The translations under genes were made by a program, and so were the position numbers. From Thiothrix unzii (GTDB lineage: Bacteria; Pseudomonadota; Gammaproteobacteria; Thiotrichales; Thiotrichaceae): DNA of 64,000 nucleotides. The first letter of the stretch is position 1. Each line of letters starts with the position of its first letter. Of the stretch, positions 50,060 to 56,704 are shown one piece after another. The stretch is from positions 806,001 through 870,000 of the forward strand of contig NZ_CP072793.1 in assembly GCF_017901175.1 (NCBI RefSeq). Direction: 5' to 3'. The notes under the pieces were generated by a model. That model was not told the origin of the DNA, did not search any database, and worked only from the letters and a program-made list of their open reading frames with translations.

Positions 50060-51802
50060 TTATTTCTTCGGCGCGTAAATATCCGTGCAAGTCCCCTCTG
50101 CCACTTCCGCCGCAAAGTTCAGCGTCTCGGAAAGCGTCGGATGCGGGTGAATCGTCAAACTCATGTCGTGCATATCCGCCCCCATTTCCAAGGCCAGCAC
50201 CGCCTCGGCAATCAGCTCACCGGCATTCTTACCCGCAATGCCCGCGCCAATCAGTTGCCCGGTTGCCTTATCAAACAGCACCTTGGTAATCCCGTTGCTG
50301 GCATCCATCGACAACGCCCGCCCACTCGCCGCCCAGGGGAACGCGCCTTTTTCATACGCAATCCCTTCCGCCTTGCACTGCTCTTCGGTCTTGCCCATCC
50401 ACGCCACTTCCGGGCTGGTGTAAGCGACCGACGGAATGGTTTTCGCATCAAAATAGGCTTTATGCCCCGCAATCACTTCCGCCGCGACTTTGCCCTCGTG
50501 CGTGGCTTTGTGCGCCAGCATCGGCTGCCCCACAATGTCGCCAATCGCAAAAATGTGCGGCACATTGGTACGCATCTGATTATCCACCGGAATAAAACCG
50601 CGTGTATCCGCAAACACCCCCGCCTTCCCCGCGTCAATCAGCCCACCATTTGGCGAACGCCCAATCGCCACCAACACCCGGTCAAACGTATCCGTCGCAG
50701 GCGCACCCTTGCCCTCAAACGCACACACCAAACCCTCAGCCGTCGGCGTAATCGCGGTAACTTTGGTATTCAGGTAGATATTCTCGTACATCCCCTTAAT
50801 CTGGTTGTGCAAGGGCTTCACAATGTCACGATCCGCACCGGGCATCAGTCCGGGTGAAAGTTCCACCACGGTAATTTTTGCACCAAGCGCGTGGTAAACC
50901 GTCGCCATTTCCAACCCGATAATGCCACCGCCGACCACCAGCATCCGCTTAGGGATTTCCGGCAATTCCAGCGCATCGGTAGAATCCATCACCCGTGGAT
51001 CGTCCCACGGAATAAACGGCAATTTCGTGACTCGCGAACCGGCGGCAATGATGCAATTGGCAAACTTCACGGTCTGCTTGCTGCCATCCGCTGCTTCCAC
51101 TTCAATGGTATTGGGTGAAGTGAAACGTCCGTAGCCTTGCACGATTTGCACTTTGCGCTGCTTCGCCAAGCCTTTCAGACCCGTGGTCAACTTGCCGACC
51201 ACATCGCTTTTATGCGCTCGCACGGCATCAAGGTCGATGTCCGGCTCGCCGAATTTCACGCCATGCTTAGCAAACTCCTTCGCCTCGTTGATCACTTCCG
51301 CCGTGTGCAATAACGCTTTGGAGGGGATGCAACCGACGTTGAGGCATACGCCCCCGATATTGGGGTAACGCTCGATCAGCACCACTTTTTTGCCAAGGTC
51401 AGCAGCGCGGAACGCAGCGGTGTACCCGCCGGGGCCAGAGCCTAGAACGACGAGTTCGGTTTCAAGATCAGCAGACGTGGGTGTAGGTGAAGGTGAAGAT
51501 TGTTGTAGAGACGCAAGATTTTGCGTCTCTACGGTGGTAACAACAGCTGCATCCCCCGTCTCTACCACCTCCAACATCAACAACACCGACCCTTCCGACA
51601 CCCGATCCCCCACCTTCACCAGCATCTGCTTAATCGTGCCAGCGACAGGGCTGGGAATTTCCATCGACGATTTATCAGACTCGATGGTAATCAGCGAATC
51701 TTCCGCCTCAATCTGGAAACCGGCATCGACCAAGACTTCAATGATTTCAACGTCTTTAAAACTGCCAATATCGGGGACTTTGACTTCGATAATCTTGCTC
51801 AT
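50060..51802 (-). CDS. lpdA: Dihydrolipoamide dehydrogenase (E3) with N-terminal lipoyl domain
   Basis: 580 residues. The lipoyl domain (1-80) carries Lys44 in [10 protein letters not shown]; the Ala/Pro/Ser linker (82-110) includes the 28-bp palindrome in translation (VETQNLASL, 91-99). The E3 part begins [13 protein letters not shown], with redox pair Cys153/Cys158 ([13 protein letters not shown]), NAD site [19 protein letters not shown] and C-terminal HPHPTLSE active-site His. It reoxidises dihydrolipoamide on E2, using NAD+. A lipoyl-bearing E3 is the Neisseria/Pseudomonas-type fusion. Start overlaps the aceF stop (ATGA). Confidence 0.95.
51505..51532. repeat. 28-bp palindrome in lpdA linker
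   Basis: Arms GTAGAGACGCAA and TTGCGTCTCTAC, 4-bp centre (GATT). It is within the linker codons of lpdA, read in minus-strand phase as VETQNLASL. Same sequence as the aceF copies. Confidence 0.9.
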
Positions 51803-53142
51803 ACCAGCAACCTCCGAATATCACCCAGCATTTTGGCAAGGTAAGTGGTGAAACGTGCGCCATCCGCGCCATCAATTACGCGATGGTCATACGACAGTGA
51901 CAGTGGCAACATTAAGCGCGGCGCGAATTCCTTACCGTTCCAAATGGGCTGAATGTCGGACTTGGATACGCCCAGAATGGCGACTTCCGGCGCATTCACA
52001 ATCGGGGTAAATTTCGTGCCACCAATCCCGCCAAGGCTGGAAATCGAGAAGCACCCGCCCTGCATATCCGCCGGTTTCAGCTTCTTGTCACGCGCCTTCG
52101 CCGACATTTCCTTCAGCTCTTCGGAAAGCTGCATAATCGACTTTTTGTCCACGTCACGGAACACCGGCACAACCAGTCCATCCGGCGTATCCACCGCCAC
52201 GCCGATGTTGTAGTAGCTTTTACGGATCAGGTTTTCACCCTTCGCATCCAACGATGAATTGAAACGTGGGTAAGCCTTCAGACCCGCCACCACCGCTTTC
52301 ATAATGAATACCAGCGGGGTAATTTTCATCCCCGACTTGGCATTTTCCTCATTCAATTGCTTGCGGAACGCTTCCAGATCGGTGATGTCCGCTTGGTCAA
52401 ACTGGGTGACGTGCGGAATGTGTACCCAGTTGCGGTGCAAGAATTCGCCGGTCAGTTTATTGATGCGCGACAACGGCACGGTTTCGATTGCACCCCATTG
52501 GCTGAAATCAATGTCCGGCATGGGTGCAACGCCCAGCGTATTGCCGGAAGTCGCACTTTTTCCTGGCACACCGCCCATGCTCATCACATCCTTGATGTAC
52601 GCTTTTACGTCATCTTGGGTAATGCGCCCCTTGCGACCAGAGCCTGTGACCTTGTTGAGGTCAGCACCGAGTTCGCGGGCAAACTTGCGCACAGAGGGGG
52701 TAGCGTAAGCTTTGCTGAAGTCGAGTTTTGGGGAATGCGGTTGTCGTAGAGACGCAAGATTTTGCGTCTCTACAGTGGTGGTGGATATCGGTACGGGTTG
52801 TTGTTGTAGAGACGCAAGATTTTGCGTCTCTACGGTGGTAGTGGGTGTCGGTGCGGATACGGGTTGTTGTTGTAGAGATGCAAGATTTTGCGTCTCTACG
52901 ATCCCCGCCACCTCCATCATCACCACCAAACTCCCTTCCGAAATCCGATCCCCCACCTTCACTTTCAGCTCTTTAATCACGCCCGCTACCGGCGACGGAA
53001 TTTCCATCGACGATTTGTCGGATTCAATCGTGATTAACGAGTCTTCAACAGCGATGGTGTCGCCAACGCTCACCAATACTTCAATGATTTCAACATCTTT
53101 AAAGCTGCCAATGTCTGGCACTAAAACTTCTTGGATTGCCAT
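51799..53142 (-). CDS. aceF: Pyruvate dehydrogenase E2, dihydrolipoamide acetyltransferase
   Basis: 447 residues. One lipoyl domain (1-80, lipoyl Lys43) is followed by a linker (81-140) built from three copies of the palindrome-derived VETQNLASL segment (82-90, 104-112, 124-132) separated by Pro/Thr/Gln spacers. The E1/E3-binding domain follows ([17 protein letters not shown] ... [12 protein letters not shown]), then the acetyltransferase with [15 protein letters not shown] (His and Asp of HxxxDG). It transfers acetyl from E1 to CoA. E. coli E2 has three lipoyl domains; here there is one, plus one on E3. It overlaps lpdA by 4 bp and is 11 bp after aceE. Confidence 0.96.
52746..52773. repeat. 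28-bp palindrome in aceF linker (third unit)
   Basis: Same arms GTAGAGACGCAA and TTGCGTCTCTAC. Encodes VETQNLASL at residues 124-132 of AceF. Confidence 0.9.
52806..52833. repeat. 28-bp palindrome in aceF linker (second unit)
   Basis: Same palindrome. Encodes VETQNLASL at residues 104-112 of AceF; 60 bp from the third unit. Confidence 0.9.
52872..52899. repeat. 28-bp palindrome in aceF linker (first unit)
   Basis: Same palindrome with one change in the left arm (GTAGAGATGCAA), which is synonymous in the AceF frame (Ala GCG to GCA). Encodes residues 82-90; 66 bp from the second unit. Confidence 0.9.
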
Positions 53143-56676: not shown

Positions 56677-56704
56677 GTAGAGACGCAAAATCTTGCGTCT
56701 CTAC
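56677..56704. repeat. 28-bp palindrome between rnt and potD
   Basis: GTAGAGACGCAA (56677-56688) and TTGCGTCTCTAC (56693-56704): the same element as in aceF and lpdA. It sits between convergent genes. No T-run follows on either strand, so terminator function is not indicated. Confidence 0.85.

Follow-up and report, generated by a model that had tools for sequence, protein, structure and literature searches.

Palindromic repeats inside protein-coding genes have been described in several systems. The Rickettsia palindromic elements (RPEs), 105-146 bp long, lie in frame in genes of conserved proteins (Ogata et al., 2000, via PMC2229807), and a guanylate kinase bearing one of them is still active (PMC2229807). 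The GTAG-tagged repetitive extragenic palindromes (REPs) are short, GTAG-ended palindromes present in many copies, some of which are genic, notably in DNA replication and repair genes; flexible linkers and loops have been proposed as neutral sites for them, and two Xanthomonas species are described as having different REPs at about one recB site (Di Nocera et al., 2013, PMC3733652). PARCELs are palindromic protein-coding DNA thought to move between genes (PMC2996958), and perfect inverted repeats of up to 284 bp are described inside protein-coding genes of Nematomorpha mitochondria (PMC6649704). The present work concerns a 28-bp palindrome, P28, which lies in the interdomain linkers of pyruvate dehydrogenase E2 (aceF) and E3 (lpdA) of Thiothrix unzii, within a stretch of 64,000 nucleotides (contig NZ_CP072793.1, positions 806,001 to 870,000 of the forward strand) that is called the window here, together with the palindromes that lie in the same linkers in other Thiothrix genomes.

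P28 resembles RPEs in lying in frame in conserved protein genes (E2, E3, NifU, DnaX, NuoG, and others). The likeness to the Rickettsia elements, drawn in an earlier note on this DNA, is fair for the manner of working and implies no sequence homology; P28 has 28 bp against 105-146 bp, and unlike RPEs, several families refill one slot in Thiothrix. With GTAG-tagged REPs, P28 shares the form of a palindrome of 20-40 bp with GTAG at its end and a high copy number, although its 36 copies are moderate where REPs are described as usually exceeding 100; the GTAG of REPs is reported to stand unpaired at one end, whereas in P28 the predicted fold has it paired with CTAC, and the T. unzii genome has no match to PF01797, the family of the REP-associated tyrosine transposases (RAYTs) linked with REPs. 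PARCELs are described as 25-residue amphipathic tandem motifs in open reading frames (ORFs) without assigned function, many of them with sequences for membrane targeting, rather than in core-enzyme linkers, whereas P28 is read as nine residues and is spaced at 60 and 66 bp in aceF. The Nematomorpha palindromes belong to animal mitochondria and P28 to a bacterium. Finally, two of the other Thiothrix families described below, A and B, partly occur as inverted pairs, like the REP doublets of REPINs and RAYT-linked REPs (PMC3116915, PMC2817692); those repeats are transposase-linked, and for the Thiothrix families such a link could be suggested at most by analogy.

Intragenic REPs and the tolerance of REPs by linkers are thus already described (PMC3733652), the main text of that paper containing no words that begin with dihydrolipo or pyruvate. 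Apparently new, as far as the literature searched goes, are two things: that several families refill defined linker slots throughout a genus, and that E2 and E3 match in family. No account of same-slot turnover across a genus was recognised among the matches listed for intragenic palindromes, REPs, linker repeats, and Thiothrix, which were mostly titles and the beginnings of abstracts, and among the papers listed for the P28 arm sequence, none concerns bacterial repeats, going by the titles. The explanation favored here, which we regard as probable, is that REP-like palindromes survive in interdomain linkers and are replaced there quickly.

P28 in the pyruvate dehydrogenase operon

P28 is composed of two 12-bp arms around a 4-nt loop (GTAGAGACGCAA-GATT-TTGCGTCTCTAC). 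The earlier note had counted one copy in the linker of lpdA, three in that of aceF, and a fifth between genes, and all five could be mapped with coordinates and strand. G003 in the list is the Thiothrix genome compared most closely with T. unzii below.

51505..51532, minus strand: P28 in the linker of lpdA (E3), residues 91-99, translated as VETQNLASL
52746..52773, minus strand: P28 in the aceF (E2) linker, residues 124-132
52806..52833, minus strand: P28 in the aceF linker, residues 104-112, with 12 nt of flank in common with the lpdA copy
52872..52899, minus strand: P28 in the aceF linker, residues 82-90, with one silent mismatch
56677..56704, no strand: intergenic P28 copy, at whose place G003 has another palindrome
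52708..52917, minus strand: aceF linker, holding all three P28 copies (Pfam: lipoyl domain at residues 5-75, E3-binding domain at 146-180)
51458..51571, minus strand: lpdA linker, holding one P28 copy (Pfam: lipoyl domain at residues 6-77, Pyr_redox_2, the FAD domain, at 116-437)
51799..53142, minus strand: aceF, pyruvate dehydrogenase E2, 447 residues
50060..51802, minus strand: lpdA, lipoyl-domain E3, 580 residues
53154..55811, minus strand: aceE-like E1, 885 residues, just upstream in the operon, its name being suggested by place and sequence

The recurrence of P28 is not due to chance. The window has 10 matches to the P28 arm at no more than two mismatches, against 3.5 expected, a number reached in none of 100 shuffles, and the 3.72-Mb genome contains 32 copies with perfect arms and 36 with up to three mismatches, reversed controls giving none. 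It is not a widely spread repeat either: the pattern GTAGAGACG..CGTCTCTAC occurs in 11 of 57 genomes in a set of relatives and in two of 398 drawn from the phylum, T. unzii being counted in both, so that wide dispersal was rejected. In a distant genome of the same class (G082), a related palindrome (GTAGAGACGCGATNNATCGCGTCTCTAC type) is present in 10 copies; similar ones probably occur in cyanobacteria.

GTAG forms the 5' end of P28 on both strands. The predicted fold of the element has -18.4 kcal/mol (z -9.1), and that of a stretch with two aceF copies, which pair with each other, has -43.1 kcal/mol. The base before the element is C in 24 of the 36 copies and A in none, and ACC commonly precedes it, which hints at a target preference, though the codon context of linkers would fit as well.

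The Pfam domains place the E2 copies between the lipoyl and E3-binding domains and the E3 copy between the lipoyl and FAD domains, bearing out the claim of in-frame insertion into flexible linkers. It is also correct, as the earlier note stated, that all four genic copies in the window stand at distances from the start codon divisible by three and are read as VETQNLASL, but this agreement carries little weight. Only two frames of P28 are open on each strand, the third containing TAG, and the aceF copies (two of which have identical 14 nt after the element) look like tandem duplications of one unit; what then agrees is the frame of only two insertions, each with two frames open to it. Across the T. 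unzii genome, the VETQ frame is used in E2, E3, NifU, and a TIR-AAA protein, and the RDA frame in four other genes, namely DnaX, where it reads RDAKSCVST, NuoG, a NifA-like regulator, and a ClpX-like protein. As both open frames are used, there is no evidence of a selected peptide.

The opposite order of events, in which the linker peptide is old and the palindrome incidental, can draw on the copy at 52872, the only one of the five without perfect arms, where a mismatch (GAGATGC) disrupts the palindrome but leaves the codon as Ala and the peptide unchanged. However, P28 has 36 copies genome-wide in both open frames, and VETQNLASL is found in the E2 and E3 linkers of none of the other 14 Thiothrix genomes with a parsed aceF-lpdA region. 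P28 in these linkers is therefore an insertion, and the condition that the earlier note named as refuting it does not hold. Retention of the peptide for its own sake was rejected, and the comparison of the 15 Thiothrix genomes refutes, for these genomes, the idea that the residues came first, which is hardly credible.

Repeat families in the same linkers of other Thiothrix genomes

The comparison covered 15 of the 16 genomes of the genus, T. unzii (G000) included; the remaining one (G005, L180), whose aceF reads with several stops, was dropped from trees and counts. Among named records, the best match to the T. unzii AceF is that of T. lacustris DSM 21227, at 84% in its best segment, in a search that may not include the window's own record. 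The insertion described in the earlier note is upheld, but it is one case of a wider pattern that the note missed, as other Thiothrix genomes hold different repeats in the same two linkers. A repeat recognised at the DNA level, P28 included, is present in the E2 linker of 11 of the 15 genomes and in the E3 linker of 12. Besides P28, which is confined to T. unzii in these linkers, four families were distinguished: A (CCTTCCCCCGCAAGGGGGGAAGG), B (CCCCTCTCCCTCAAGGGGCGAGGGG), C (CCCTGAGCGAAGTCGAAGGG), and D (CCTCCCCTTATCAGGGGAGG). Most Thiothrix genomes have multiple copies of A, B, and C, and D is present in the E2, E3, DnaX, and SucB linkers of several. In G014, the aceF copy of C is the single one in the genome (at most two mismatches), and in G009, P28, A, B, and C are all absent genome-wide and the E2 and E3 linkers are plain. 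C and G are abundant in A, B, and D alike, A copies match B at five mismatches, and the three families could be distantly related.

Similarly, the DnaX linker contains a DNA-matched repeat in nine of the 15 genomes (P28 in two, A in one, B in one, and D in five), and in two more genomes, it looks repeat-derived, by peptide only. The SucB linker has an inverted repeat pair in two of 16 genomes (G010, L171, and G007, L168), none being matched in the other 14. Where a second E2 was found, that of G013 carries C, and none of the searched families is present in that of G015 or of G011. In lpdA of G001 (L039), the lipoyl domain and the catalytic part are in different frames, with the break in or beside the linker repeat pair, which is either a real split or an assembly error.

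A tree of the 15 genomes was made from DnaX domains I-III and the catalytic parts of E2 and E3. On it, the E2 linker has 10 changes of repeat family (9.4 in shuffles), the E3 linker also 10, which is the maximum possible, and the DnaX linker seven (7.8 in shuffles), the label "none" being used for linkers read by peptide (E3 of G002 and G012; DnaX of G010 and G012). The repeat family has no phylogenetic signal in any of the three linkers. With A and B merged, the changes number eight, eight, and seven for E2, E3, and DnaX, and with A, B, and D merged, seven, six, and six, still at the level of the shuffles.

Close relatives show the same turnover. T. unzii and G003 form a pair with full support in the joint tree, and where the former has P28, the latter has C in both E2 and E3 and A in DnaX, the flanks being 91-98% identical. 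G015 and G011 have E2 catalytic parts with 98.6% DNA identity, yet their repeats differ in both E2 and E3. At five further P28 places of T. unzii, among them that of the intergenic copy of the window, G003 has a different repeat or palindrome (GGGCGGTTCATGAACCGCCC in the intergenic case), and at six the two genomes share P28; this comparison is biased, as most of the G003 stretches were fetched for holding a repeat, and 19 of the 34 T. unzii stretches tried had no fetched G003 counterpart.

Matching of repeat families between E2 and E3

In eight of the 10 genomes with a repeat in both linkers, E2 and E3 carry the same family, against a mean of 2.6 in shuffles (p 0.00075); with A and B merged, the match is nine of 10 (p 0.001), and with D merged too, it has p 0.008. 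The label shuffles ignore shared ancestry, the labels themselves being without phylogenetic signal, and "none" again stood for the peptide-read labels. No comparable agreement involves DnaX, which matches E2 in two of eight genomes (p 0.32) and E3 in three of 11 (p 0.23), with some peptide-read labels. The earlier note had stressed the presence of P28 in two partner subunits of one complex; this holds for E2 and E3 but is not unique to them, as NifU, DnaX, NuoG, the NifA-like protein, and the TIR-AAA protein carry it too, three of these five in the other frame.

In T. unzii, one E2 copy and the E3 copy have 12 nt of flank in common, the maximum among 496 pairs of copies from elsewhere than these genes being 10, which fits local copying of P28 with its edges. 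Two other routes to the matching were rejected. Gene conversion of the lipoyl domains is not supported, their identity being 70.7% within a genome and 68.6% between genomes, in separate clades (two identities near 21%, artefacts of unaligned sequences, were excluded), and whole-operon transfer does not account for the families: the E2 catalytic part is situated between the two linkers, and its tree still requires 10 changes of family for each of them.

Linker preference, origin of the repeats, and alternative explanations

Beyond E2 and E3, P28 of T. unzii lies between domains (bounding positions in brackets) in NifU at residue 196 (184/226), DnaX at 400 (369/419), the NifA-like protein at 500 (482/528), NuoG at 500 (461/533), and the TIR-AAA protein at 184 (126/204), residues being counted within the fetched ORFs or, for genes cut by the fetched stretch, from the cut. 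Genome-wide, seven of eight internal genic sites fall between Pfam domains, against 1.4 expected (P 2.5e-5). The exception is the ClpX-like protein (L073), where P28 stands about ten residues past GIGF, a position which we take to be the ClpP-docking loop. Four more copies are situated near the ends of Pfam-recognised ORFs: a solute-binding protein, an Rnf-Nqr protein, a FeMo-Co family protein, and EamA. In G003, 13 of 27 internal sites of families A, B, and C lie in domain gaps, against 4.6 expected (P 5e-5). In these counts, the domain maps were entered by hand, those of E2, E3, and DnaX of G003 were shifted by hand, and those of the ABC-ABC, UvrA, and nSTAND-WD40 proteins had some blocks set by hand, with only the best stretch per family used; the counts leave out near-end sites, proteins without usable Pfam blocks, the NuoG and SEFIR-AAA sites that G003 has in common with T. 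unzii, and the second ArgS copy.

An unvalidated codon model called 42 of the 84 repeat sites of G003 as lying in ORFs. Repair and replication genes are frequent among its repeat hosts (UvrA, UvrD, MutL, MutS, PolA, RecC, and DnaX) and resemble the hosts of REPs described in other species (PMC3733652). At 20 of 61 sites of A or B in G003, more than one copy occurs within 250 bp, and D forms pairs in the DnaX and SucB linkers. Two arginyl-tRNA synthetase genes of G003 about 7 kb apart (L291, L292) have the same copy of C at the junction of the N-terminal and catalytic parts. Linkers are thus favored, but they are not the sole place of genic repeats. The same element type behaves differently in G028, from another genus of the family: 10 of the 36 P28 copies lie inside Pfam-supported genes, against none of 35 copies internal to a gene in G028 (p 0.001, the criteria being Pfam in the one and the codon model in the other), and residence inside genes would seem to be characteristic of these Thiothrix genomes rather than of the element type.

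P28 would accordingly be described as a REP-like, non-autonomous mobile palindrome that, like the other Thiothrix families, lands genome-wide. Genic insertions would survive best where nine to 40 stop-free residues do little harm, in linkers, loops, and protein ends, and the E2, E3, and DnaX linkers may act as slots that are refilled again and again through arrival, translation, and loss or swap for another family. The matching of E2 and E3 would possibly arise by copying of the repeat with a little flanking DNA between the two linkers. The dispersal, the preference for linkers, the in-frame reading, the turnover in one slot, and the matching are observed; active transposition, neutrality, local copying, and cellular translation of the peptide are inferred.

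Several observations weigh against this explanation. A profile search of the T. unzii genome for the RAYT-type transposase PF01797 gave no match, five of 14 control genomes matching, and no RAYT that could move P28 was found in the genome; within the genus, the Y1 transposase PF01797 is present in only 10 of 16 genomes. In G003, 14 of the 27 internal repeat sites are inside a Pfam domain, and for its family C, the sharing of flanks between E2 and E3 is not special, as judged by eye. In G028, GTAGAGACGTTGCATGCAACGTCTCTAC and its close variants number 35 copies and have the open frames of P28, yet almost all of them are intergenic, one being in a clearly coding ORF, at its C-terminus, and one in a 180-residue ORF of weak signal. 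The P28 copies common to T. unzii and G003 differ at two of 168 nt, against 12.5 expected from their flanks with gaps counted as differences; this conservation, which may reflect homogenisation of copies or constraint on the palindrome, is unlike simple neutrality. Trees built separately for the catalytic part of E2 and for that of E3 agree neither between themselves nor with the joint tree; the E2 part joins T. unzii to G010 (support 91/92) and the joint tree joins it to G003, so that recombination may share in the turnover of repeats.

The conservation of shared copies is what would be expected if the hairpin itself were selected, slowing ribosomes on the messenger RNA so that the lipoyl domain folds first, a task that any palindrome family could serve. 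The strong predicted folds of P28 and of the paired aceF copies agree with this, as does the occupation of most E2 and E3 slots despite changes of family. However, four of 15 E2 linkers and three of 15 E3 linkers have no recognised repeat, the copy at 52872 has lost one base pair, and a SucB linker with a repeat is found in just two of 16 genomes, which makes selection for the hairpin quite unlikely as the main cause.

The gene-tree conflict bears on another explanation, namely that homologous recombination, with the flanking conserved domains as anchors, passes linker cassettes from one Thiothrix species to another, so that one insertion has reached several species. Such exchange would explain the absent phylogenetic signal, and some cassettes are alike beyond the repeat, as seen by eye in the C spacers of G003 and G006 and the A flanks of G001, G008, and G015. 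Against it, exchange of the whole operon does not explain the changes of family counted on the E2 catalytic-part tree, and the lipoyl domains show little conversion; we regard it as unlikely.

Linkers are usually seen as slowly drifting low-complexity sequence, whereas the E2, E3, and DnaX linkers of Thiothrix gain and swap mobile repeats fast enough to erase phylogenetic signal. Both the origin of linkers and the tolerance of the cell for mobile DNA in core genes thereby become directly testable by comparison of strains. A further step, possible though doubtful at present, is that the core-enzyme linkers of Thiothrix are continually rebuilt from whatever palindromes are available, with the E2 and E3 linkers changing together, either through local copying or through the need for a hairpin between the domains in the message; different mobile repeats would then act as interchangeable linker cassettes.

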